From IMG/VR virus record IMGVR_UViG_3300017719_000241, positions 1-22,339 of that record: a DNA stretch of 22,339 nt; one strand, given 5' to 3'. The position numbers were made by a program, and so were the translations under genes. This DNA is from a virus. The notes beneath the pieces were generated by a model. That model worked only from the letters and a program-made list of their open reading frames with translations, did no database searches and was not told the DNA's origin. This document shows positions 4,683-22,339 of this stretch, piece by piece (position 1 is the stretch's first letter; each line of letters begins with the position of its first letter).

Positions 4683-5090
4683 ATGGCTAGGATATTAAAT
4701 AATAGATTTCCAATCGATGTGATTGGTAGAAAAGCAGTAGGATTTAGTTTACCTTTTAACGGTCCCGCTGTTTTTAACCCTACGTATACTGTTAGGGATC
4801 AAACAAAATCTAATTTAATTAACTATTTATTAACTAATAAAGGGGAAAGAGTATTTAATCCCGAATTTGGGGCTGATTTAAGAAATTTATTATTTCAAAA
4901 CATAGCAGACTCTACTACCGAAGAATTAGAAAATAGAATTCAAAATGATATTAATAATTTTTTCCCACAAGTAGCAATTAAGCAAATACAATTTATTAAC
5001 CAACCAGATCTTAACCAAATAAATTTTTCATTGTCTTATACAATAGCAAACTTTGGGATAACAGATGACATACAAATATTATTACAATAA
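4683..5090 (+). CDS. gp25-like baseplate wedge protein
   Basis: A 135-residue protein of the GPW/gp25 family, the small wedge protein that sits at the inner baseplate next to the sheath initiation site. The diagnostic segment is at about residues 36-90: LINYLLTNKGERVFNPEFGA, then DLRNLLF and a TEELENRIQNDINNFFPQ helix. This matches the family's 'L-x-T-x-x-G-E-R-x-x-x-P-x-x-G' pattern and the following helix. The length is typical (T4 gp25 is 132 residues). The C-terminal half ends in beta strands (INFSLSYTIANFGI), as expected. It overlaps the gp6-like gene by one base (TAATG). The gp25-gp6 pairing is seen in most contractile injection systems, which reinforces both calls. Confidence 0.9.
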   Translation: MARILNNRFPIDVIGRKAVGFSLPFNGPAVFNPTYTVRDQTKSNLINYLLTNKGERVFNPEFGADLRNLLFQNIADSTTEELENRIQNDINNFFPQVAIKQIQFINQPDLNQINFSLSYTIANFGITDDIQILLQ

Positions 5091-6958
5091 TGGCTAATTT
5101 AAATAGAGACATAAGATATATTGATAAGGATTTTAACCAATTTAGAAATTCTTTAATTAATTATTCTAAAACTTATTTCCCGGACACCTATAACGATTTT
5201 TCAGAAACTTCTACAGGTATGATGTTTATGGAAATGGCTTCTTATGTAGGAGATGTATTATCTTTTTACTTAGACAACCAAATCCAAGAAACTTTTATTC
5301 AAAAAGCTAGACAGCAAGAAAACTTATACCAAATGGCTTATTTATTAGGGTATAAACCAAAAGTAACAACTGTTGCTTCTACTATGGTTGATTTTTATCA
5401 ACAAATCCCTGCTAAGTTAGAAGGTGGTGAGTATGTTCCTGATTATGATTATTCTCTTTTAATCCCTGAAAATACTACTGTTACATCAAATGCTAATCCT
5501 TCTACTAAATTTATAATTGAAGATCCAGTTGATTTTTCATCTTCAGGTTCTTTAAATCCTACAGAAGTTACAGTTTATCAAATATCAGGTAATAATCCAA
5601 CTTACTATTTATTAAAGAAATCAAGAAAAGCAATCTCTGCAACAATTAATACAAAAGAATTTACATTTGGGGAAGCTTTTAGATTTGATACTCGTACTAT
5701 AAATGCTTCTAATATAATAGGAATTTTAGACTGTGTAGATATAGATGGTAATACTTGGTATGAAGTTCCTAATATGGCACAAGAAAATGTATTTAATTCT
5801 ATAAGAAATACAAATGTGAATGATCCAACCTATGGTTTCGAAGCCGATGCTCCGTATTTATTGCAGTTAAAACAAGTTCAAAGAAGATTTGTAACTAGAT
5901 TTATTAATTCCGGGTCATTAGAAATTGAATTTGGGGCAGGGAATACTCGAAGTAATGATGAAGAAATAGTACCAAACCCAGATAATGTAGGTTTAGGTTT
6001 ACCATTTGAAAGAGATCAATTAACAACAGCATTTTCTCCTCTTAACTTTATATTTACAAATACTTATGGTATTGCTCCTTATAATACTACACTAACTTTT
6101 AGGTTTTTAACCGGTGGTGGGGTTGGAGCTAATGTTGAAGCTAATACATTAACAGTAATAGATGATACTAATATTGTATTTAACAATCCTAATTTAACAG
6201 ATACAACATTAGCTAATCAAATATTTGCCTCTGTATCATCTAATAATGTTTTAGCTGCAGATGGAGGTCAAGATGGAGATACTGACGAAGAATTAAGATT
6301 AAATGCTGTAGGTAATTTCCAAAACCAATTAAGAACAGTAACTAAAGAAGACTATTTAATTAGAGCTTTATCAATGCCTTCTAATTTGGGTACAATATCC
6401 AAAGCTTTTGCAACCCCAGTAAATGTTGCAGATAAAAGAAATAATCCAGGTGAATTACCCACAATATTAGATTTATATGTTTTAACCTATAATTCAGAGG
6501 GTCAATTAGCAACTTCATCTAACTTACTAAAACAAAATTTAGCAACATATTTAGCAGAGTATAGAATGATTAATGATTCTATCAAAATAAAAGATGCATT
6601 TATAATTAATATTGAAGTAATATTTGATATAGTAGTATTACCTAACTATAACAATAATGAAACTATTACAAAGTGTATAACTTCACTATCAAATTACTTT
6701 GAAACTGATAAATGGCAAATTAATCAACCAATTTTAATGAAAGATTTATTTGTTCTTTTAGATAAAGTAGAGGGGGTTCAAACTGTTAAAGATGTAGTAA
6801 TTAATTGTTTAACAGATGAGGTTTTAGGATATAGTAACTTTGCATATGATATAGTTGGAGCTACTATTAATAATGTAGTATACCCATCTATAGATCCAAT
6901 GATTTTTGAACTTAAATATCCTAACTCTGATATTAAGGGAAGAGTAGTACCTTTATAA
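5090..6958 (+). CDS. gp6-like baseplate wedge protein (J-type)
   Basis: A 622-residue protein close in length to T4 gp6 (660 residues), the wedge protein whose dimers form the continuous inner baseplate ring. The N-terminal region, about residues 10-92, has RYIDKDFNQFRNSLINYSKT, then FSETSTGMMFMEMASYVGDVL and SFYLDNQIQETF, a pattern characteristic of gp6/J proteins. A mid-protein segment around 395-425 (DGDTDEELRLNAVGNFQNQL then RTVTKEDYL) is the acidic 'baseplate J-like' core. The C-terminus has strands and a helix (ITKCITSLSNYF, MKDLFVLLDKVEGVQTV), typical of the last J domain. It follows gp25 with a one-base overlap, the usual order. The start is the ATG in TAATG. Confidence 0.92.
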   Translation: MANLNRDIRYIDKDFNQFRNSLINYSKTYFPDTYNDFSETSTGMMFMEMASYVGDVLSFYLDNQIQETFIQKARQQENLYQMAYLLGYKPKVTTVASTMVDFYQQIPAKLEGGEYVPDYDYSLLIPENTTVTSNANPSTKFIIEDPVDFSSSGSLNPTEVTVYQISGNNPTYYLLKKSRKAISATINTKEFTFGEAFRFDTRTINASNIIGILDCVDIDGNTWYEVPNMAQENVFNSIRNTNVNDPTYGFEADAPYLLQLKQVQRRFVTRFINSGSLEIEFGAGNTRSNDEEIVPNPDNVGLGLPFERDQLTTAFSPLNFIFTNTYGIAPYNTTLTFRFLTGGGVGANVEANTLTVIDDTNIVFNNPNLTDTTLANQIFASVSSNNVLAADGGQDGDTDEELRLNAVGNFQNQLRTVTKEDYLIRALSMPSNLGTISKAFATPVNVADKRNNPGELPTILDLYVLTYNSEGQLATSSNLLKQNLATYLAEYRMINDSIKIKDAFIINIEVIFDIVVLPNYNNNETITKCITSLSNYFETDKWQINQPILMKDLFVLLDKVEGVQTVKDVVINCLTDEVLGYSNFAYDIVGATINNVVYPSIDPMIFELKYPNSDIKGRVVPL

Positions 6959-6969
6959 AATAAGAAAAA

Positions 6970-7422
6970 ATGGCAGATTCATTAATAGACAGCTTTAATA
7001 AAACTAACTTAGATACAGAAAATTCAGACCCCTCTGGTGGTCCGATTAATGACAAACCCTCAAATTTTAAGCAAATTTATTCTAAAGATAACCCATATTT
7101 TATCCCAGGCACCCAAGCTCAAGAATCTAACTTAAGTTCATCATTAACTATTACAGGTTTAGATGTAGAAAGTAATGAAGCAGGGGTACAACAAGGAGGG
7201 TCTGGTGGTCCTAATAGAACTAATTCAACAAATATTCCTAGCGGACAGTATAAAGCAATAGGTTCATCACCTCTTCCTCTATCACCATCACCCGGGGGTG
7301 AAGCATTAAAAACACGAGAAGGACAAGATAAAGATTTTACATTAAACGCTTATACACCTGAGAATACTTACATGCAAGCCATGGTAAAATTTAAAGATGA
7401 AGCAGAAAATAATTTAATTTAA
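6970..7422 (+). CDS. small disordered structural-block protein, unknown function
   Basis: A 150-residue protein rich in Ser, Gly, Pro, Asn and Thr, with low-complexity stretches (GGSGGPNRTNSTN, then SSPLPLSPSPGG). Only the last 30 residues, with YTPENTYMQAMVKFKDEAEN, look like an ordered helix. I recognise no family. It sits 11 bases after gp6 and four bases before the next gene, inside the baseplate block. Such a protein may act as a flexible connector or chaperone, its C-terminal helix binding a wedge protein, but that is inference. Its A-rich leader (aagaaaaa before the ATG) matches the start-site style of the window. Confidence 0.7.
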   Translation: MADSLIDSFNKTNLDTENSDPSGGPINDKPSNFKQIYSKDNPYFIPGTQAQESNLSSSLTITGLDVESNEAGVQQGGSGGPNRTNSTNIPSGQYKAIGSSPLPLSPSPGGEALKTREGQDKDFTLNAYTPENTYMQAMVKFKDEAENNLI

Positions 7423-7426
7423 AAAA

Positions 7427-8572
7427 ATGGCTGTATATAAAATATTTCCCGAAAAAGACTCAACTTTATATAGTTCTTATCCTAGTAAAAATACAGGATT
7501 AGATCAAATTATTGAAGCATCAACATTTCAATTTGATGATGCTGGGCAAGCTAGTAGGTATTTAATTAAATTCCCCACTAGTCAAATTTCTGAAATTATA
7601 ACTGATAAAGTTATTAATGGAGAATATAAAGTATATTTAAGAAACTTTAATGCCGTAGTAACAGGATTAAACTTAGACCAAAAATTAGAATTTTACCCTA
7701 CATCTGGTAGTTGGGGTATGGGGACTGGAAGGTATAATAATGCACCTGAAGTAGTTAATGGTGTTAGTTGGGTATGGCAAGATTACTCAGGTTCAACTAA
7801 ATGGCCAACAACAGGATTTGCAGAAAATGTAACAGCTTCTTTTTTAGGGAGTCAATATGAAGGTGGGGGAAATTGGTATACTGGTTCTAACTTACCATTA
7901 GATCCTGTTACACAATCTCAAGCATTTTCATATGCTGATACTAAAGATATTTTTGTAGATGTTACCAATACAGTAGAAACATGGTATAGTTATTCATTAG
8001 ATAATACAAAAGGGTTCAAAAATGAAGGGTTTATAATTAAACAACCTAATGATAAAGAATTCATAAATGATTTATCTAACAACGCAACCTTCCAGTTTTT
8101 TTCAATCGATACTAATACAATATACCCCCCACAGTTAGAATTTAGGTTTAATGATTATACATTTGAAACAGGCTCATCTAAAAATGTAATACTACCTCAA
8201 GTAGAAAGCTTTATTTCTATATATAACAATTTAGGAACTTATTATTCTGAAAGTATTCCTAGATTAAGATTTGCAGCAATGCCTAAATACCCAGATAGAG
8301 CTTTTTTAACAGCTTCCTTATATACAACTAATTACTTTTTACCTGAATCTCAATCTCTATATGCTATAAAAGATACAGAAACAAATGAATTTGTAATTGA
8401 TTTCGACTCAGAATATACAAGAATTAGTGCAGATGATACTTCAAGTTATTTTGATTTATACTGTAATGGTTTGGAACCTGAAAGATATTATACTATTCTG
8501 GTTAAGACATCTATTGGGGGAGAAGTAAAAGTTTTTGATGAGAATATAATGTTTAAAATAGCTAAAGGATGA
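7427..8572 (+). CDS. virion structural protein with DNRLRE-like N-terminal domain
   Basis: A 381-residue protein. The N-terminal 240 residues start with MAVYKIFPEKDSTLYSSYPS and contain FVDVTNTVETWYS, NEGFIIKQ and IYPPQLEFRF. This resembles the DNRLRE/CBM96-type beta-sandwich, in which a 'K-D-x-x-I/L-x-x-x-x-P-x-x-N-x-G' opening and a 'V-T-x-x-V-x-x-W' strand are typical. The C-terminal 140 residues form a second domain with PKYPDRAFLTASLYTTNYFL, YAIKDTETNEFVIDFD and YFDLYCNGLEPERYYTILVK, which I recall as a conserved block in structural proteins of marine T4-like phages. Its place between gp6 and the giant protein corresponds to T4 wedge or pin genes, so a peripheral baseplate role is likely. 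Its exact T4 counterpart is unclear. The next gene overlaps it by ATGA. Confidence 0.75.
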   Translation: MAVYKIFPEKDSTLYSSYPSKNTGLDQIIEASTFQFDDAGQASRYLIKFPTSQISEIITDKVINGEYKVYLRNFNAVVTGLNLDQKLEFYPTSGSWGMGTGRYNNAPEVVNGVSWVWQDYSGSTKWPTTGFAENVTASFLGSQYEGGGNWYTGSNLPLDPVTQSQAFSYADTKDIFVDVTNTVETWYSYSLDNTKGFKNEGFIIKQPNDKEFINDLSNNATFQFFSIDTNTIYPPQLEFRFNDYTFETGSSKNVILPQVESFISIYNNLGTYYSESIPRLRFAAMPKYPDRAFLTASLYTTNYFLPESQSLYAIKDTETNEFVIDFDSEYTRISADDTSSYFDLYCNGLEPERYYTILVKTSIGGEVKVFDENIMFKIAKG

Positions 8573-8958
8573 GTGAAGGAACAATAAAACAAGCAGCATT
8601 AAAAAGACAAGTATTTGATAAAGAAGCTTTTAATAATACTTACAATACAGAATTTACAGAATTATTAACTTCTGATGATCCTAGTTTTTTTAGTCTTGAT
8701 TTAGCTACTGTAGGGGATTTCTTTGAATTATACCTTAAGTTATTTGATGAAATACCTAAACTTGGAGAAGTAAATTCTCATGAGTATCTTGCTAAAACAA
8801 GTGGAGAATTTGTTAATTATTTACCTCAACAAGCAGAAATAGAAGCATTGTTAGCTGAAATAACCCAATTAAGAGAAGAAAATGTACAACTTAGAGTTGA
8901 TTTTGCAAATTCCTTAGGTAATGATAGTAGTGTACCTGGTAATAACTCACAAAATTAA
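8569..8958 (+). CDS. small coiled-coil protein of the baseplate block
   Basis: A 129-residue protein with no named family. Residues about 40-85 contain FFSLDLATVGDFFELYLKLF, then DEIPKLGEVNSHEYLAKTSG, a compact helical unit. Residues about 88-112 (QAEIEALLAEITQLREENVQ and following) have leucines at heptad spacing, a clear coiled coil, followed by a disordered Asn/Ser tail. The start overlaps the upstream stop by ATGA, implying coupled translation. The giant gene starts 12 bases later. It may be an oligomerising adaptor or chaperone for the neighbouring large protein. That role is inferred only from context and the coiled coil. Confidence 0.7.
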   Translation: MSEGTIKQAALKRQVFDKEAFNNTYNTEFTELLTSDDPSFFSLDLATVGDFFELYLKLFDEIPKLGEVNSHEYLAKTSGEFVNYLPQQAEIEALLAEITQLREENVQLRVDFANSLGNDSSVPGNNSQN

Positions 8959-8969
8959 ACATGCAATAA

Positions 8970-11900
8970 ATGAGCAATACTGAAGAAATAACAACAATAG
9001 GAATAGGCTTTACTAACCAGGGTTTCCCTGTAAGTGCTTCTATTACTATAGTTGCCCCAGAACAAATAGCTGATAGTGGTTTTCCTTTTGCAAATAATAC
9101 TATAGTACCTTCTGAATTAATTAGTGGTTCATTCGACCCAGACTCTCCACAATCTTCAATGGAGTTTTTCATTTATGATTATAATAATCAAATTATTTTC
9201 TCAAACCAAAATTATACAGATTGGTCAGTTGATGAAAATACTAATACAGAAAATAATCAAATCCCAACAACATACACAAATGATGAGGGGATTGAAGTAC
9301 TTAATTTTGCGGCAACTGCTTCTATAACAACAGATTTTGTTGAAGTAGATCCTGTGCAGGATACTACTAAAAGGGGTATTGATAGAGGTACAGTTTATAC
9401 TTTATATAACTTTTTAACAAACCATATAGGATCTAATGCTAATATAACTTTCTTTATAGATGAAATATCATCAGATAGAACAGAAATTAGATTAAAATCC
9501 AATGTAATAGAGGATGCAACTATTGAATTTGGGTATAATAGATTAAAAAATCAATTAGATTCAAATAATTATTTTGATGAGTTTTATATTAACTTATTTG
9601 ATAATAATTATGCTACTGGTATTAATTGTGCTCTTGATAAAGATGAAGAAAATGGATATTCAGTTTTAATAAAATTAGCTTCACCACTTCCAGGCTCTGC
9701 CTCAAATGGGGATAAATGTTTTGTTTGTGTTAAACAAAGTGAAACTATAGCTTATCAAGTTGAATTTATTGAAGATTATAGTAATTTAATAGATAATGCT
9801 ACTTATATTAAGGGTCCTAATGTCAATATTTCTTTACAAGAAGTAGTAAACAATTCAACACAACTACAATCAGGAGAAGATTTATTAGCAACCAAATCTT
9901 CAGCTTCTTTAGATAGTGTTTTAAACTATTTAAATAGAACTGGTGTAAATCTTACCCCAAATTATTCATATAACACTTTTAATGAATTTATTAATTTCTC
10001 CTCGGCAAAAGAAAGAATAAATAATTTTTATGAAAAAGTATCACAAATTCAAGCATATCAAGCTGATATTAATATTATTACAAATGTAGTACCAACAAAC
10101 CCTAATGTTACTCCTGTTTCTACTAGTTTAGCTAGTTTACAAAATAGCATTACCACCATAATTGAAAATTTTGATGGGTATGAAAATTATTTATATTATG
10201 ATTCCTCATCTTTTTCATATCCAAAAGATTTAACTAATAACACATATTATCCTTATCCTTTACTTGCAACTGGGAGTGTAGAAGTATTAGAATGGATGGG
10301 TAGTGATGTTGAAAATTCTCAATATTATGGAGGTTATATTCTCTCAGCTTCATTATATGATGAAAATAATCAAAATTGGTTATGGTATACTATTCCAGAT
10401 TATGTCAAAGAAAATGCTGAAAATGATAATTACATTACCTTTACTAATATGGTTGGTCAATCATTTGATGAGGTATGGATGTATACAAAAGCTTTAAGTC
10501 AAAGATTTAATACTACTAATAACCCAGATACAGGTTTACCTTTAGGTTTAGCTGCAGATGCTATAAAAGGTTTAGGATTCGAAACCTTTGGAAATAATTA
10601 TAATAATCAAAATAATTTTATAGGTTTAGTAGGTGAAGATAGTGGTTCATATACTCCTCCAACTGGTAGTGAACTAATTACTAATTATGTTGCTATTAAT
10701 GATGGTAGGATTCTTAATTATTGGGAGCATGGATATTCATGGGAAGATTATGTTGAACAAATTATAACTAAAGGATTCCCATATGCCATAGATAAAGTAA
10801 GTAAAGAAATTTACAAACGTCTTTATCATAACATGGCTTACCTTACTAAGAAAAAAGGTACAATTAGTGGTTTAAGACAATTAATTAATATTTGGGGTAT
10901 TCCTAATACTATACTTCGAATTAATGAGTTTGGAGGTAAAAATAGGGATAATACTGATGACTATGATTTATGGTATAAACGTTATAGTTACGCGTATACT
11001 CCTGTGGGTAATTCATATATCGCTAGTTCATCTGTAAAGATTCCTTGGATGCCATTAGAACGTAATTACGTAGCAGAAAATGAATATGTGGTACCAGATG
11101 GTGTAGCTTTTAGATTCAGAACAACTGGTTACCCTACATCAAGCCAATCAGGAGATAATTTTACACAATCATTAGCTGTAAAAAAATCAAATGGGGTTAA
11201 TGATGAGTTTATGGATTGGGGTATTAAATTATCCTATGAAGTACCCCCAGTAGGAACTTATGACGGATCTAGTAACAGTGAATATATTAATTATGGTAAA
11301 CTAAACTTTTATATGTCAGCTTCAGTAGCTGATGGGGGGGTTCAAGAATCAAGTGATATTTATTTACCTTTCTTTGATAGAGGTTGGTGGACTGTTTTAC
11401 TTCAAAGAGATATACATGCTCCTTATAATAATAATACTAAAAATACTACTTATACCTTACGAGTTGCTAATAAACAAGTTAATGGTTGGGATGGAAATTC
11501 CCTAGGTTGGAGTGGTGATACTACTCTTACAAGTATTAGTCAACCATCAATAAATGATGCTTGGAATAAATTTGGGGTTACACCAAATGATGGGGTTTAT
11601 TTAGGGGGGTATGTTTCAGGATCAACAATAGAAACTAAAATATTAAATGATTTTGGTAGAATATTTTCAGGATCGCTCCAAGAATTTAGATATTATTCAT
11701 ATAATATAAGTGAATCAGTATTTAATGATTTAGTTATGAATCCTGAAAGCATCGAAGGTAATACCATTTCAGGATCACAATCATCATTTGATATTGTGAA
11801 TTTTAGAGCACCTTTAGGTAATGAATTAGAATTTATTTACACAGCTTCTACGTATGATAGTTATGTTGAAAATATATCATCATCACACCCTGCAATTACA

Positions 11901-14900
11901 GGCTCAGCACCTACTTTAATAGTAACCCAATCTTTTGTAAACCCTGCAGATAGTTCTTTAACATCAAGTTATGAATTTATTCATTATGAATCCACAGTTA
12001 AAAGAACATATAGTAAAACAAACAGAGAAACATATTTCTTAGATCAACCTTCTATTGGGGTTAGAAATAGGGTATCAAATAAAATACAAGTTGAAGATGG
12101 GGAGGTTTATGGCAACGTATTATCTCAATATAGAAGTATTCAACAAAATTATTTAATTAGTGAAAGCTATACTGAAGATATTACTAGTTTAGAAGTTGGT
12201 TTTTCACCCCAAGATGAAGTAAATGATGATATTATTGCATCTTTTGGTTATGGAGTAATATCTGACACACTTGCTGATCCTAGATTTGCTTGGAGTGGAA
12301 GTTTAGATTATTACCCCAAATTAAGAAGTATATCTGAGAATTATTTTAGAAAATATACAGATGGGAGTGTTTGGGATTATATAAGATTAATAAAATATTT
12401 TGATAATTCAATATTTAAAGCAATTAAATCTTATGTTCCTGCTCGTACAAGTGTTAATACTGGTGTTATTATTAAACAACACATGCTTGAACGTAATAGA
12501 CGAGTTCCTGTAACAGTTAATCCTAATACTATAATAGCATATACTCCAGAAGAAGAAATTGTAGTTGGAGGTCAACCTACACTTTCAGGAATGAATAGTC
12601 CTATTTCATATAGAAATTTAGAAATTACAGGAAGTATAAAAGTAGCTACAATTGAAGGAGGAGCTGGGGGAGTAGTTAATCCTTATAATGTTTTAGATAG
12701 ACAAATAGGCGATTTTAATGCATATACCCAAACGGGTCCTGGTGCTATCGGAGCATCTTATGGAGATACCCCTCTAAGTGTAAATGGTTGGAATGCTAAC
12801 GCAACTCCAAATATTTTTAATGTAACAGATCCCAATGGTATTAGGGGAATTCAAGTTGCATATCCTCTTAGAACAGCATTTACATTAAAAAACACTTTAG
12901 ACATTCAGTATCTTGATGTAGATACTGGATTTTATTTAGGAGTATCATCTTCAATAAGAGGTATTATAGGAGAAGATTTATTTACATCGGCATCATTAAG
13001 CCCTACAAATACTAAAGTCTCAACTTCTGAATATAAAATAACCCCTGAAGAAGAAATTTATTTTTATTTAAGAGGAGTAACAATTCCAGGTTTAACTCCA
13101 ATATCATCAACCCAAATATCATATTTAATATTTGAATTAGATGAACCTACATGGTTTGAAGATACAGAGGCTTCATCTAGTATACATAACTTGTACACAT
13201 CTCAATCTTATATAGTACATGATGAAACAATTTCAGGTAGTGTTTGGAGATTACAAGATTCACATGATGAGTTTTATAATGGAGAATTTAGTGGGAGTGA
13301 ATTTATAGCAACTACTCAATCTTTATTAAATAACCCATTTGCTTTAGCTGGTCCTCTTGAGACAAGTTATGCTGTAGCTGTAACAGCTAGTACAGGCCAA
13401 TGGTATGTAGATAGAAATAATAACGGTACTTTTTTAGATACATACCCATCTTATTCTCTTAATATGGAACTTAAGGTATATCCTTGGCAGGATTATGACC
13501 CAGACCAAATGGATAGTGATATTGTTGATTGGACTAAGGAACAAGTTAATGATGGTGAAAATAAAGCTCTACTTGTACTATACCAAGACAACCTCCCAGC
13601 AGCTCAAGAGAAATTTTACATATACAGTATATGTTTCCCTGCAAAAGGAGCATATAAAACTGGATTTACATCAGTAGATCTTAATGATTGGCAAAGGTAT
13701 TTTGGTCTTACTATGTTATCTACTAATGATAATAGAGTTCAAAGTCAAAACATTAATAATGTACCTTTTCCTCCTGTTGGGTTAGCCCCTCAAGGTATAG
13801 TAAGTGAGGATTATATCCCTATGGAGTATGGTCCCTATTTTAAATTTGATCTTAGAGATGCTATAATTGATTCTGTACCACAAGCTACATTTTTTGCTTC
13901 TACTGCTCCTGACAACCCAGTATTTTTAGATGACCCAGAATTTGCGAATTTAAATAGTGGTGTTGTTGTGTCTTCAGCTTTAGGAGATACAAGTAGAATC
14001 ACAAGGAGAGTAATTAATTCATATGACTCCTTTCAATCCCCCGCACCACTATCAGATGCATCTTTTATCCAATTAAAATGGGATAATGCTAAAACATCAG
14101 GTCAAAGACCCCTTCTAATTGAAAATGATAACGGTACTTTAAATTCCTCAGATATTGCAGCAACTTTTAACACTGCAGGTGGACAATTTAGACCAACATT
14201 TTCAGTAATGGTTTCTAACTTTGATCAAGAATTTCAATCTAACCCTAGAGAAGAACTATCTTCTTGTGGTGAGGGAGGTTGGTTATACCAATTAAATGAA
14301 CCCGGAACTGGTTTAGGAGTAGGTAGTGGTAGTTTATTTTTACAAGGTACTACTTGGTCAGGTTCATATGGGGATAGTGGTAATTATGTTCCTTATGGTT
14401 TGATGCTTAATGATAAAAGTTTCCTAGATGATAATACTACTATAGTTGATAATACCGCAACATTATTAAACCCCCAAATAGAATTTGATTTTACCCTTAT
14501 AAACCAACTTTCAGGACTCCCAGCAACCGAAGATTTTAGTGGTAAACCTGGTAATTTATTTATTCATCAAAAGAATGAGTTTGCAGGATTAATTTCTTTA
14601 GGGGCAAATGTAACTAATGGAGTTGGGACTGGGTTTTTATATAACCCTTTAAATAGTAGATACATAAGCGGTAGTGCATATTCTGCTGTTCTCCCATTAC
14701 TTTATAATCCTTCAGGTGAAAACCCAACTCAATATGTTAGTTTTGACCCACAAATACCAACTTTTACACAATTTTATAATACTCCTTTCAATCCTTTAAT
14801 AAATAATGCAACTCAAAGTGTTGATAATACTTACTTACAAGTAGTAGAGTATGATAATGGTCCTATTCCTTCAAATATTATACCAATAATAGAAAATAGT

Positions 14901-16634
14901 GCAGTTAAAGCCGAAGTACCAGATAGTTTTTATACACAAAAAGCTTCAATAACTTCTAGATACCTAGGAAGTAAATTACAATCAGCTAATTATAACTATC
15001 CTTCAATTCCTTCACCAGCAACCCAAAAATATTTACCAAATAGTGCTGAAAATACTACAATTACGTATTTGAATGCTTTCTTATCAGGTAGTGGTGATGA
15101 TGGTTTCCCAACAGTTACAGGTAGTGATAGTTGGGGGGGAGATTCTTCATATGGGACTATGAAATCTACTAATACTTCTTTAAGTACAATATATAAAGCA
15201 CCAATATACTTTGCTCATTTTAAAACATCACATTATAACCAAAATAATGATGGTACTTATACATTTGAAATTGATGCTTTAATTGAATCTCCTTTAGAAA
15301 ACGTGCAAGGTAGTAAAGCCCCTGTAATGCCTCAAATTATAAAGATTGATGGTACTGATACTTGGGTTACAGATGTAAGAAGTACATTTGAAGTAGATAG
15401 AAAGGTAAGTGTTGCTTACACAAATGCTAAGTTTGGTAATATAAATTACAGTAATTTAACATTTGGGAGTAATACAATATATCAAGGAGCTGCTGAATTT
15501 CTTACTATAGGTGCTTCTACAACAGGAGAAAATGGAGTAACATCTTCATATGTAACACCTCGTTCAACCCCAACAATGTCATTTTTTAACCCTAGATGGG
15601 GATCATTAAATGAAAGGCCTGATGGTACTGGTGAACCTGTGGTAATAACATCAAATTTTGTAAATGCTCTCCCTAACGTATTACCCGCAGGTGATGTTGG
15701 AGATTTTGGTAATTTCTTATTAACGGGTAGTGATGGAAGTAATGGTTATTTTATTTTAGGTGGAAATAAGACCTATTTTTCCCAATCATTAGAAATTGCA
15801 GATGGTTCTAACCCTGGATATAGTGTTGTATTTGATGGTCCTGGTTTAGGATTAATAAATAGTATTAATATAGCTGTTAGTGAATCTAAACAAGCTAAAA
15901 AACGAATTATTGGTAGTAGTATTCAAAAAATAACATTAGGACTTCCTATAAATGAAGGAGCCTCACCTTTTATTAAACCTCCAAACCCTAATGATGTTGG
16001 TAATTATCTTACCCAAAATTACTTATCATCATCCTTTGATGGTCTTGATAATGGAATATTTGGATACCCCGAATCCATAGATAGTGGTTCCCTTCCTTTT
16101 ATGTTCAAGAAAGGAGATGAAATTGTATGTACTTTTAACACAAATGCATCAGCATCAAGCTTTGATCAATTCACATCAGTTACAAAAGTATATACTGTTA
16201 CTGAATTATCAGGTTCTGTAGGTATAGGTCAAATTGGTGATCCAATTAATACATCTACTTTATATACAGCTTCAATATGTTTGTTAGGATCGGGAGGGCA
16301 GTGTTACACCCCAGTAGGAATTAAAGGCTACTTTAATACAGATGAAGATGCTGTAAGAAATATTGTAAAAGTATATCCAAACCCTTCAAATGATGGTGTT
16401 GTCAAAGGACAAATTAATAATTTTATTGTACGTAGAAGAAATAATGCAGGTGATAGAGTAATAATATATCAAGAAGCACCTAACAATACTGTAACATCTC
16501 TCACAGGATCAGGTGAAGGGTATCTAATACCAGGAGATTTTACCCCAACCCAAAAGAGAAATGTTCAGTCACTAATTTCAAATTTATCTGCCAAAAATAC
16601 TTTTGAAAAAGATAATATAAATAAATTAAATTAA
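8970..16634 (+). CDS. giant baseplate wedge / fibre-like protein with gp7-like segment and LamG-like domain
   Basis: A 2,554-residue protein, the largest in the window. Approximate layout: 1-260 beta-rich region (YDYNNQIIFSNQNYTDW, ISSDRTEIRLKSN); 335-425 with a helix (FSSAKERINNFYEKVSQIQ) and FDGYENYLYYDSSSFSYPK; 575-660 with GYSWEDYVEQIITKGFPYAI and MAYLTKKKGTISGLRQLINI, then WGIPNTILRINEFGG; 720-930 a LamG/concanavalin-like sandwich closing with FSGSLQEFRYYSYNISESVF; 1130-1180 with YIRLIKYFDNSIFKAI and LERNRRVP; then about 1,300 residues of beta-rich, Ser/Gly/Asn-rich fibre-like sequence; and a C-terminal block with FIVRRRNNAGDRVIIYQEAP and LTPTQKRNVQ-like FTPTQKRNVQSLISNL. The 'KGT-x4-LR-x-L-I-x3-G' segment recalls P2 gpI and gp7-type wedge proteins. 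Location after gp6 is where T4 has gp7 (1,032 residues). LamG domains commonly bind glycans, so host recognition is plausible. Confidence 0.8.
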   Translation: MSNTEEITTIGIGFTNQGFPVSASITIVAPEQIADSGFPFANNTIVPSELISGSFDPDSPQSSMEFFIYDYNNQIIFSNQNYTDWSVDENTNTENNQIPTTYTNDEGIEVLNFAATASITTDFVEVDPVQDTTKRGIDRGTVYTLYNFLTNHIGSNANITFFIDEISSDRTEIRLKSNVIEDATIEFGYNRLKNQLDSNNYFDEFYINLFDNNYATGINCALDKDEENGYSVLIKLASPLPGSASNGDKCFVCVKQSETIAYQVEFIEDYSNLIDNATYIKGPNVNISLQEVVNNSTQLQSGEDLLATKSSASLDSVLNYLNRTGVNLTPNYSYNTFNEFINFSSAKERINNFYEKVSQIQAYQADINIITNVVPTNPNVTPVSTSLASLQNSITTIIENFDGYENYLYYDSSSFSYPKDLTNNTYYPYPLLATGSVEVLEWMGSDVENSQYYGGYILSASLYDENNQNWLWYTIPDYVKENAENDNYITFTNMVGQSFDEVWMYTKALSQRFNTTNNPDTGLPLGLAADAIKGLGFETFGNNYNNQNNFIGLVGEDSGSYTPPTGSELITNYVAINDGRILNYWEHGYSWEDYVEQIITKGFPYAIDKVSKEIYKRLYHNMAYLTKKKGTISGLRQLINIWGIPNTILRINEFGGKNRDNTDDYDLWYKRYSYAYTPVGNSYIASSSVKIPWMPLERNYVAENEYVVPDGVAFRFRTTGYPTSSQSGDNFTQSLAVKKSNGVNDEFMDWGIKLSYEVPPVGTYDGSSNSEYINYGKLNFYMSASVADGGVQESSDIYLPFFDRGWWTVLLQRDIHAPYNNNTKNTTYTLRVANKQVNGWDGNSLGWSGDTTLTSISQPSINDAWNKFGVTPNDGVYLGGYVSGSTIETKILNDFGRIFSGSLQEFRYYSYNISESVFNDLVMNPESIEGNTISGSQSSFDIVNFRAPLGNELEFIYTASTYDSYVENISSSHPAITGSAPTLIVTQSFVNPADSSLTSSYEFIHYESTVKRTYSKTNRETYFLDQPSIGVRNRVSNKIQVEDGEVYGNVLSQYRSIQQNYLISESYTEDITSLEVGFSPQDEVNDDIIASFGYGVISDTLADPRFAWSGSLDYYPKLRSISENYFRKYTDGSVWDYIRLIKYFDNSIFKAIKSYVPARTSVNTGVIIKQHMLERNRRVPVTVNPNTIIAYTPEEEIVVGGQPTLSGMNSPISYRNLEITGSIKVATIEGGAGGVVNPYNVLDRQIGDFNAYTQTGPGAIGASYGDTPLSVNGWNANATPNIFNVTDPNGIRGIQVAYPLRTAFTLKNTLDIQYLDVDTGFYLGVSSSIRGIIGEDLFTSASLSPTNTKVSTSEYKITPEEEIYFYLRGVTIPGLTPISSTQISYLIFELDEPTWFEDTEASSSIHNLYTSQSYIVHDETISGSVWRLQDSHDEFYNGEFSGSEFIATTQSLLNNPFALAGPLETSYAVAVTASTGQWYVDRNNNGTFLDTYPSYSLNMELKVYPWQDYDPDQMDSDIVDWTKEQVNDGENKALLVLYQDNLPAAQEKFYIYSICFPAKGAYKTGFTSVDLNDWQRYFGLTMLSTNDNRVQSQNINNVPFPPVGLAPQGIVSEDYIPMEYGPYFKFDLRDAIIDSVPQATFFASTAPDNPVFLDDPEFANLNSGVVVSSALGDTSRITRRVINSYDSFQSPAPLSDASFIQLKWDNAKTSGQRPLLIENDNGTLNSSDIAATFNTAGGQFRPTFSVMVSNFDQEFQSNPREELSSCGEGGWLYQLNEPGTGLGVGSGSLFLQGTTWSGSYGDSGNYVPYGLMLNDKSFLDDNTTIVDNTATLLNPQIEFDFTLINQLSGLPATEDFSGKPGNLFIHQKNEFAGLISLGANVTNGVGTGFLYNPLNSRYISGSAYSAVLPLLYNPSGENPTQYVSFDPQIPTFTQFYNTPFNPLINNATQSVDNTYLQVVEYDNGPIPSNIIPIIENSAVKAEVPDSFYTQKASITSRYLGSKLQSANYNYPSIPSPATQKYLPNSAENTTITYLNAFLSGSGDDGFPTVTGSDSWGGDSSYGTMKSTNTSLSTIYKAPIYFAHFKTSHYNQNNDGTYTFEIDALIESPLENVQGSKAPVMPQIIKIDGTDTWVTDVRSTFEVDRKVSVAYTNAKFGNINYSNLTFGSNTIYQGAAEFLTIGASTTGENGVTSSYVTPRSTPTMSFFNPRWGSLNERPDGTGEPVVITSNFVNALPNVLPAGDVGDFGNFLLTGSDGSNGYFILGGNKTYFSQSLEIADGSNPGYSVVFDGPGLGLINSINIAVSESKQAKKRIIGSSIQKITLGLPINEGASPFIKPPNPNDVGNYLTQNYLSSSFDGLDNGIFGYPESIDSGSLPFMFKKGDEIVCTFNTNASASSFDQFTSVTKVYTVTELSGSVGIGQIGDPINTSTLYTASICLLGSGGQCYTPVGIKGYFNTDEDAVRNIVKVYPNPSNDGVVKGQINNFIVRRRNNAGDRVIIYQEAPNNTVTSLTGSGEGYLIPGDFTPTQKRNVQSLISNLSAKNTFEKDNINKLN

Positions 16635-17390: not shown

Positions 17391-18473
17391 ATGGCAGTAG
17401 CTAATACAAACAACATTTCAACATTTGCACCTTTAGATCAAGGAGATCTATTAATCAGTACTGAAAATGTAGCTAGTACTGTTTGGTTAAATAATAACCC
17501 AACTTTATTTGCTTATTATACATCCTCAGTGCAAGTAGCTAGTTCAACAGGACAATTCTATTATAATATTTACCATAATGAAGAAACTACAGGATCTGTA
17601 CAATTTGCTATTGCTTATTGTGATGCTGATGGTAGTGGTAGTTTACTATATAACCCAAATGTAGATGGTTTATCTCCCACTAGAACAAATTATGGTCAAT
17701 ATAGAACATTAATTTTAGGAGATGAAACCTCAGCTTTTGTTTTTGGAAATAAATCAGCATCTTTTTTCTATGCCTTACCTGTTGAAAGATCAGGATATAA
17801 AGAAGAATTGCTACCTGGAGTTATGACATTAGCTCTCTCAGGTTCAGATAAAACATTATATCTTACAGATGATAGTAGGCAAGGTGGAGCTGCTCAATTT
17901 TCAGAAGCAGGTAGAGTATATAACTTAGTATCAGGTTCAGCTGGTGATGTATATACGGGTATAAATGAGTTTGGATGGTCAGAATTTTCGGGATCTTATG
18001 GTTGGTTCTTACCAGACATTGGTACTCTTTTATTAAATGGAGAAGCATTAAGTCAATCTTTTGCTGATGGTGGTATTGCTAATGGAACTGATTTCCAAAT
18101 TAATAGAGCATCAAATACTGAAGTAAATAACCCTGAAAAATTATTCACAGCTTTAAATTTAGGAGGTAATGTAATAGGTAATGTTACAACAAACCCAGGA
18201 TGGACATTAAATTCCCAAGAACAACTTTCCTCAGATTTTATATTTTGTAGAGCAAGAAGTCAAAACTTTAATTATTCAACTAACCCATCATTCATATCAG
18301 GATCAGATGGAGCTGTACTATATGATACTTTTATTAATGACCCCCAAGTATATATTACTACAGTAGGTTTATATAATAGTGATCAAGAATTAGTAGCAGT
18401 AGCAAAATTATCTCGACCTTTACTAAAAGATTTTACAAAAGAATTATTAGTAAGAATCAAGTTAGACTTCTAA
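17391..18473 (+). CDS. tail fibre / appendage structural protein A
   Basis: A 360-residue beta-rich protein with frequent Ser-Gly-Ser and Thr-Gly-Ser turns. Residues about 1-130 contain LDQGDLLISTENVASTVWLN and repeated YYTSS, FYYNIY strands. Residues about 185-225 contain VSGSAGDVYTGINEFGWSEF and SGSYGWFLPDIGTLLLNG. The last 40 residues, with VYITTVGLYNSDQELVAVAK then LSRPLLKDFTKELLVRI, are closely similar to the end of the next gene's product. I recognise no named family, but the composition, size and position between a virion protein and its partial paralogue support a late structural protein. The downstream gene begins three bases after the stop. There is no signal peptide or membrane segment. 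Confidence 0.7.
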   Translation: MAVANTNNISTFAPLDQGDLLISTENVASTVWLNNNPTLFAYYTSSVQVASSTGQFYYNIYHNEETTGSVQFAIAYCDADGSGSLLYNPNVDGLSPTRTNYGQYRTLILGDETSAFVFGNKSASFFYALPVERSGYKEELLPGVMTLALSGSDKTLYLTDDSRQGGAAQFSEAGRVYNLVSGSAGDVYTGINEFGWSEFSGSYGWFLPDIGTLLLNGEALSQSFADGGIANGTDFQINRASNTEVNNPEKLFTALNLGGNVIGNVTTNPGWTLNSQEQLSSDFIFCRARSQNFNYSTNPSFISGSDGAVLYDTFINDPQVYITTVGLYNSDQELVAVAKLSRPLLKDFTKELLVRIKLDF

Positions 18474-18476
18474 TGA

Positions 18477-19436
18477 ATGGGTGCATGGAAACAATTTACA
18501 AACAAGGATGTTACTATAACATCATTTATAGCAGATAAAGGATTTTCATTTGCTAGTGGTTCTATAACAGGATCAGAAAATGGCATTAATTTTTATGAGG
18601 GTTTAAATGTAAATTACACCTCTTCACTTAATGCTCAATCAGGATTTGAATATTCCTCATCTGTAAATTCTGTATATAATAGTGCTAAACAACTTTACTA
18701 TAAGAATTATTTATCTTCAAGTATAGGAGATTATGCTAATACAGGTAGTATGGTTCCTGGGGTAACAAGAGAAGATGATGTTTTACAAGGCCCAGTAAAT
18801 GCTACCCTATATGATAATTATTTACAATCTACCTTATTACAAGAAAGATATTTTCCTACAGGCAGTAATAAAAGAATTTCAACAATTTCTATCCCTACTT
18901 ATTTATATGGTGAAAAAATAGTTCCATATACTTTTGAACTTGAATTATCCAATTCATTTTACCCTTCCAAATTCCCAGGAGGACTTATTTTAAAAGATGA
19001 TGGTGATGGGAATGTTATTAGTGGGTCCGAGGATGTGACAGTAGGTCAAATATTTTATTCTCATGGCATTGCTGTATTAACAACCCATAGTTGTGATATT
19101 ATAGGGGCGATAGTTAATGCAATCCCTCAAAGAATAGATAATATGCAAGTAAGATTTAGTTCTTCACTTACTATACATGAGCAGCAGTATAGGTGTACTA
19201 TTTTAGAAAATGAATTTAATGTATCACTTAACCCAACTTTAGCAACCCAATCAATTGAAGGAGCTTTAAACACTTCTTATTATGATTTTACAACAGGATC
19301 ATTTTTTGAGCCTTATGTAACTTGTGTTGGATTATATAATGGGGATCAAGATTTAGTAGCTGTAGGGAAATTATCATTCCCATTACCCATTTCTCAATTC
19401 ACTGATACTACTATTGTAGTAAATTACGACGTATGA
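18477..19436 (+). CDS. tail fibre / appendage structural protein B
   Basis: A 319-residue beta-rich protein. Residues about 1-45 open with MGAWKQFTNKDVTITSFIAD and an FSFASGSITGSENG turn region. Residues about 130-215 include ISIPTYLYGEKIVPYTFELE, LILKDDGDGNVISGSED and VGQIFYSHGIAVLTTHSCD. The last 40 residues, with PYVTCVGLYNGDQDLVAVGK then LSFPLPISQFTD, match the end of the preceding protein (shared V-G-L-Y-N-x-D-Q-x-L-V-A-V-x-K-L-S-x-P-L). The shared module probably mediates trimerisation or attachment to a common partner. I chose ATG 18477; an overlapping ATG at 18473 is in another frame and soon stops. The GIY-YIG gene overlaps its end by ATGA. No family name can be given. Confidence 0.7.
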   Translation: MGAWKQFTNKDVTITSFIADKGFSFASGSITGSENGINFYEGLNVNYTSSLNAQSGFEYSSSVNSVYNSAKQLYYKNYLSSSIGDYANTGSMVPGVTREDDVLQGPVNATLYDNYLQSTLLQERYFPTGSNKRISTISIPTYLYGEKIVPYTFELELSNSFYPSKFPGGLILKDDGDGNVISGSEDVTVGQIFYSHGIAVLTTHSCDIIGAIVNAIPQRIDNMQVRFSSSLTIHEQQYRCTILENEFNVSLNPTLATQSIEGALNTSYYDFTTGSFFEPYVTCVGLYNGDQDLVAVGKLSFPLPISQFTDTTIVVNYDV

Positions 19437-21662: not shown

Positions 21663-22339
21663 ATGATATCATTAATACAACTACTCAAAGAAGCAGTAGG
21701 CAAACCTAAAGCAGTTATCTTAGCAGGAGCACCAGGGGCAGGTAAAGGATATATTTTACGTGGTTTAGACTTAGGAGGTCTAAAAGTAATGAATGTAGAC
21801 GACATTTTTGTTCCTTTATTAAAAAAAGCTAATGTTACTTTAGATTTAAAAAACGCTACACCTGAAGAAAGAAGTGAGCAAGCCAAACAAATGGCAGCTG
21901 CTAATAAACAGTTTAAAGGCGAGATGGAACAAATAATAGCTGGTAAAGAATCATTTATATTAGATGGTACAGCTGCATCATATAATACTACAGCTAAACT
22001 GAAAAATGAGTTAGATGAAGCAGGATATGATGTATTTATGCTTTATGTTTACACAGATTTAGAACGTTCGTTAAGCCAAAACCAAGACAGATATGTAAAA
22101 TCAGGAGGTGAAGATAGAAGTTTAGCACCTGCAATTGTAATGCGTACTTGGAAAAGTGTGACAGATAATTTACCTAAATATGAAGAATTATTTGGCGATA
22201 ATTTTGTAGCAGTAGCTAACACATTAGATGATAGAATGCAAGATATAGATAAAATTATACAAAAATATCTTAAACCATTTACTCCTCAAGGTACTAAACC
22301 TAAAACACCAGCTCAGCAAAAGAAATCTGATGAGCGAAA
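21663..22339 (+). CDS. P-loop kinase, zeta-toxin/adenylate-kinase-like (3' truncated)
   Basis: An open frame of 225 complete codons runs off the right edge. Residues 22-29 form a Walker A loop, GAPGAGKG, with G rather than S/T after the lysine, as in adenylate kinases. NVDDIF (44-49) supplies an acidic pair suited to base or phosphate-acceptor binding. FILDGTAAS (about 97-105) is a Walker-B-like strand plus turn, and LYVYTDLERSLSQNQDR with a later RSLAPAIVMRTWKSV helix resembles the Arg-bearing lid of small nucleoside, polynucleotide or zeta-type kinases. The substrate is unknown. The first eleven residues, MISLIQLLKEA, form a short amphipathic helix ahead of the kinase fold. The start is preceded by the 21639 motif, which suggests late expression. 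A nucleotide-salvage role or a packaged effector are both possible. The C-terminus may continue as a Pro/Lys-rich tail. Confidence 0.8.
   Translation, partial: MISLIQLLKEAVGKPKAVILAGAPGAGKGYILRGLDLGGLKVMNVDDIFVPLLKKANVTLDLKNATPEERSEQAKQMAAANKQFKGEMEQIIAGKESFILDGTAASYNTTAKLKNELDEAGYDVFMLYVYTDLERSLSQNQDRYVKSGGEDRSLAPAIVMRTWKSVTDNLPKYEELFGDNFVAVANTLDDRMQDIDKIIQKYLKPFTPQGTKPKTPAQQKKSDER

Follow-up and report, generated by a model that had tools for sequence, protein, structure and literature searches.

A giant protein of a marine T4-like phage is probably a gpI/gp7-type baseplate wedge subunit with a LamG sandwich and an attached C-terminal module

The giant protein encoded at positions 8970-16634 of the window (the whole 22,339-base stretch that was analysed, IMG/VR virus record IMGVR_UViG_3300017719_000241) is probably a gpI/gp7-type wedge subunit, in a marine T4-like myovirus, that carries a LamG sandwich and an attached, presumably once separate C-terminal module (C-module). 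We see in it a known part built in an unusual way and not a new machine. The open reading frame (ORF) is uninterrupted, starts with ATG, has its stop within these coordinates and encodes 2,554 aa. The ORF is genuine and intact; both ends recur at 100% identity in contigs of two other samples (residues 1165-2554 in L002 and 1-225 in L023). As a single-sequence query against Pfam, PHROGs and the PDB, the giant alone gave no hits. Its parts and the two baseplate genes upstream of it are as follows.

4683-5090, plus strand: gp25/gpW-type baseplate wedge protein, 135 aa (Pfam GPW_gp25 1.4e-10, over the cut-off; phrog_261 4.7e-19)
5090-6958, plus strand: gp6/gpJ-type baseplate wedge protein, 622 aa (phrog_219 6e-16, phrog_6 3.8e-15; Pfam Baseplate_J just below the cut-off)
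8970-16634, plus strand: giant protein, 2,554 aa, probable wedge core with LamG and fused C-module (single homologous ORFs of 2,067-2,835 aa in many contigs)
8970-12584, plus strand: conserved core, residues 1-1205, the putative wedge part with LamG included (common to three clades, whose ORFs are otherwise about 1,150-1,540 aa)
10794-10937, plus strand: gpI-like KGT...GL..LI..WGIP..IL.I.EFGG segment (KGT segment), residues 609-656 (hhalign 29-32 versus shuffled maxima of 19-22)
10980-12044, plus strand: LamG/pentraxin-type sandwich, residues 671-1025 (AF2 model, Foldseek prob 1.00, VIA Z 14.6)
12045-12539, plus strand: conserved core end, residues 1026-1190 (...IKSYVPARTSVNTGVIIKQHMLER...), 80% mean identity in the window clade
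Residues 1206-1400: variable linker
13167-13409, plus strand: conserved EFYNGE.SGS element, residues 1400-1480, which in split genomes is found close to where the core ORF ends
13410-14744, plus strand: first hypervariable stretch within the C-module (residues 1481-1925), with 28% mean identity among members of the window clade
14745-15149, plus strand: diagnostic domain of the C-module (residues 1926-2060), which fused genomes encode in the core's ORF and split genomes in the next gene
15600-16379, plus strand: hypervariable stretch 2 of the C-module, residues 2211-2470 (29% mean identity)
16380-16619, plus strand: conserved C-terminal end, residues 2471-2550 (58% mean identity)

The original prediction had assigned the giant to the gp7 position after gp6. 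It does lie downstream of the gp25- and gp6-type genes, although not directly, given that three ORFs (6970-7422, 7427-8572 and 8569-8958) separate it from the latter. The second of these encodes a 381-aa protein that is kept in all clades of relatives (22-82% identity) and has no Pfam or PHROG match; its start is similar to DNRLRE-type sandwich domains. Farther upstream, 1703-2938 encodes a spike-like protein, a call made from repeats only. Downstream of the giant, the window encodes a pair of proteins that resemble each other at the C-terminus, together with a GIY-YIG protein, a primase and an exonuclease. The pair (17391-18473 and 18477-19436), which end alike in VGLYN.DQ.LVAV.KLS.PL, look like paralogues with differing N-terminal parts and are probably baseplate or fibre connectors. 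An incomplete ORF at the window end (21663-22337) matches Zeta_toxin-type P-loop kinases (Pfam 6.4e-17).

A search of viral contigs and phage records yielded relatives in three clades: the window clade, with many contigs and intact ORFs of up to 2,835 aa; the immuto clade, which consists of Flavobacterium phages; and the Microcystis-phage clade. Residues 1-1205 are common to all three, and most relatives keep the order gp25, gp6, ~380 aa, ~115 aa, core, 225, 360. Given that a near-complete 163.6-kb relative has terminase, portal, major head protein and sheath, the family belongs to the T4-like myoviruses; it is widespread and mostly made up of uncultured marine phages, with isolated Flavobacterium and Microcystis phages among its members. 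True homologues of the core stand at the same operon place in Flavobacterium phage vB_FspM_immuto (immuto35A_161/162, MW353176) and in Microcystis phage Mel-JY01, in both cases annotated as hypothetical. The immuto homologue has 1,265 aa, is without LamG and leaves the C-module domain to the following gene (162, 403 aa); that of Mel-JY01 has 1,336 aa with an alignable LamG region, and no C-module was detected in this phage. Residues 1208-1369 at the end of an immuto-clade core ORF (L121:10001-14143) match sequences that carry the annotation DNA helicase or large terminase in phages of Vibrio, Acinetobacter and others, and may be an intein or homing-endonuclease domain.

We consider it quite likely that the giant is a gpI/gp7-type wedge protein that would contact gp6. 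The call is based on the gp25/gp6 context, the match of the KGT segment to gpI in three clades, the single copy and the literature, in which T4 gp7, P2 gpI and TssG are treated as equivalents (PMC6300606). In T4 and the T6SS, the gpI/gp7-type protein and two gp6-type chains form a heterotrimer with a core bundle and a trifurcation (PMC6300606), and the core (residues 1-1205) would have two tasks, to bind the gp6-type protein of its own operon and to form the wedge. Twelve gpI-family proteins were combined into a profile, which hhalign aligned to each clade separately, with column-shuffled controls. The profile scored 29.2 in the immuto clade, 32.2 in the Microcystis-phage clade and 30.2 in the window clade, and the null maxima were about 19-22; the hhalign probabilities are low in absolute terms (6-13%), yet well above the shuffles. 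All three alignments fall at residues 609-656, inside the region (575-660) where a gpI/gp7-like segment had been predicted. This KGT segment is the most conserved part of the protein, with 94% mean identity within the window clade and with K, G, P and GG columns that are invariant across 76 sequences.

A six-frame scan with PF09684 (Tail_P2_I) pointed to the core ORF. Among 42 relative records, 13 matched, once each and only in the ~1,310-1,407-aa core frame, at profile positions ~54-108 and with E values of about 4e-4 to 0.02; these matches are all below the Pfam cut-off and come nearly all from one clade, and represent kin sequences and not independent trials. The KGT profile occurs in one copy per genome in eight relatives of 142-190 kb, and no second, separate homologue of the core or the KGT segment was found in them. 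The C-terminal half of gpI (..KP....) scored 12.2 against the core, with a null maximum of 13.6; given that this half was not alignable above the shuffles, we dropped the idea that LamG is inserted within a complete gpI domain. T4 gp7 itself (GenBank X15907) gave no match. Its profile scored 16.7-18.4 against the core, under the shuffled means of 20-21, and nothing came up when a T4 gp7 alignment of seven members was compared as a profile with the core as a whole. This non-detection is weak evidence, given that T4 gp7 and gpI fail to detect each other likewise. Profiles of the core and the C-module gave chance hits only against the PDB. The core end (1026-1190) has a counterpart in the immuto clade, where it is kept directly after the KGT segment.

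An AF2 model of the core (residues 40-1235; pLDDT 70.5, pTM 0.42) had no PDB match for its wedge part, and its confidently modelled sandwich matched carbohydrate-binding, pentraxin and LamG structures. Foldseek returned prob 1.00 to PAPP-A and PTX3, and VIA Z values reached 14.6, against 4dqa (rmsd 3.7 over 207 aligned residues; model residues 632-986, protein residues 671-1025). The LamG-like sandwich that had been expected at 720-930 is present in the model and is larger. It occurs in the window and Microcystis-phage clades and is missing from the immuto clade, which may have lost it; alternatively, it may have been gained twice, separately. We rejected LamG as a special acquisition of the window phage, given that the Microcystis-phage clade is also alignable there. 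Within the window clade, mean identity is 68% for LamG and 68% for the wedge part. Because its conservation equals that of the wedge core, LamG is probably not the host-range part, which stays compatible with the binding of a conserved glycan. We picture it on the outer face, where it could bind a glycan or stabilise the wedge. Some relatives have extra segments where the LamG region begins, among them L016 (residues 751-824 and 874-947, with query residues 702-775 matched twice) and L020 (inserted at about 707), and this site thus accepts insertions.

After the LamG sandwich, the original prediction had described about 1,300 further fibre-like residues. The stretch that follows the core is not a uniform fibre. 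In the C-module (about 1,070 residues, 1481-2554), conserved parts (1926-2210 and 2471-2550; 51-59%) alternate with the hypervariable stretches (28-29%). The C-module model (pLDDT 69) showed no clear fold or PDB match over residues 1360-2554, with a best Foldseek E of 0.19; a VIA Z of 7.5 to scattered ribosomal-protein strands was judged to be noise. A BFVD structure search matched only unnamed relatives, with E below 1e-17.

The diagnostic domain (1926-2060) lies in the core's own ORF in the window clade and in the adjacent gene in the immuto clade. It also lies in the next gene in the closer relatives L012, L062, L065, L067, L095, L099 and L101, and an HMM of the C-terminal end (2471-2550) matches the separate gene of L012, L062 and L067 and, weakly, that of L101. 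In split relatives the separate C-module gene always follows the core gene directly. The break is clean (stop, short gap, new ATG) in L062, L065 and L067, and the immuto clade likewise has a clean stop and ATG; the split in L012, with overlapping ORFs and without the YNGE element, may be a frameshift. On the core tree, parsimony requires at least nine changes between the fused and split states, and the sisters L065 (split) and L070 (fused) differ. That a neighbour has fused and separated repeatedly suggests that the core and the C-module touch in the virion. The C-terminal third (about 1481-2554) would then once have been a separate adjacent baseplate or fibre protein that is now covalently attached and would be delivered in fixed stoichiometry with the wedge. 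Its two hypervariable stretches would be the likeliest surface-contact or fibre-docking sites.

Several known systems resemble parts of this build. P2 gpI shares with the core a KGT-helix-glycine-strand-(Y/F)GG segment, a gene after the gp25-/gp6-type genes and the single copy, but it has 176 aa and neither LamG nor C-module, and about 45 residues are alignable, with Pfam scores all below the cut-off. T4 gp7 (1,032 aa) is also a large wedge protein of a T4-like myovirus with its gene near gp6; it differs in having no profile similarity to the giant and in being followed by gp8, which was not found in eight relatives. Gp119 of Bacillus phage Vp4 is wedge protein 3 (831 aa, A511 gp105 family) with CBM16-like modules and cell binding shown by experiment (PMC11406892). 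Like the giant, it is a wedge protein with built-in carbohydrate-binding-type modules, which are missing in the close homologue Deep-Blue Gp177 (PMC11406892). However, its family and modules are other ones, and binding is experimental in Vp4, whereas the giant is known from sequence and model. In AlgoCIS, Alg12 is a gp6-gp7 fusion and Alg11 carries two CBMs, and the authors regard the gp7-like part of the wedge as a re-engineering hotspot (PMC8894135). Alg11/Alg12, Afp12 and Pvc12 are, like the giant, wedge proteins with fused or inserted modules, but they belong to eCIS and not to phages, their fusion partner is gp6 or the inserted modules sit in Alg11, and no build of LamG plus C-module is reported (PMC8894135). 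We found no description in the literature, open-access full text, of a gpI-type core with LamG and a fused or split hypervariable module.

Within the preferred explanation, we considered as a tentative possibility that the C-module serves at the periphery as a structural or fibre-docking part, with a role like that of T4 gp8, gp10 or gp11, which happens to be fused to the wedge in this clade and whose variability would reflect coevolution with fibres. The alternation of conserved (1926-2210, 2471-2550) and variable segments fits this role, as do the separate gene that always follows the core gene and the absence of a gp8 (PF09215) match in the eight relatives, although the positive control matched; however, neither sequence nor fold was found to connect the C-module with gp8, gp10 or gp11, and residues 1360-2554 are without a clear PDB match. 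It is unlikely, in our judgment, that the chain acts as wedge and as primary receptor-binding protein at once, such that C-terminal receptor contact would pull the baseplate ring directly. Hypervariable residues 1481-1925 and 2211-2470 do lie on the wedge chain, and Vp4 Gp119, a wedge protein whose carbohydrate-binding modules go with decoration of host cells, is a precedent (PMC11406892). Against this stand the conservation of LamG, equal to that of the wedge core, a C-module without a recognised binding fold and the separate fibre candidates of the 163.6-kb relative. These are a 3,006-aa ORF that consists mainly of collagen Gly-X-Y repeats (L170:6475-15495), a candidate long fibre, and 846-aa and 650-aa fibre-like ORFs upstream of the sheath; the collagen-like ORF lies between these two and the tail sheath. 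They are at least equally good receptor-binding candidates as the giant, although they belong to the relative's genome, the window phage being covered by 22,339 bases only. The original proposal of one chain for the jobs of T4 gp7, gp8, gp10, gp11 and gp12 is not supported, given that the C-module is a separate neighbouring gene in many relatives, LamG evolves no faster than the wedge core and the 163.6-kb relative has its own long collagen-like fibre gene and two fibre-like ORFs.

Receptor binding by the giant chain is possible, and only the hypervariable stretches point there. We think it quite improbable that the surface decisive for host recognition lies on the wedge chain, in the hypervariable parts of the fused C-module; if it did, receptor contact would act via one polypeptide on the gp6-contacting wedge domain, with no fibre-to-baseplate joint. 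We also give little credence to the giant being a tail fibre or adhesin only, with a chance KGT resemblance and with another protein, such as the 381-aa product of 7427-8572, as the gp6 partner. This would account for the lack of an over-cut-off family hit and of T4 gp7 similarity, and the LamG fold is common in adhesins; however, the KGT segment is both the most conserved part and what matches gpI in three clades, and the core occurs in a single copy, in synteny with gp25 and gp6.

In summary, with the giant read as a probable gpI/gp7-type wedge subunit, a hypothetical protein in the gpI/gp7 place is now identified for a widespread family of marine T4-like phages. The natural series of fused and split genes shows to which neighbour the wedge would be physically tied.
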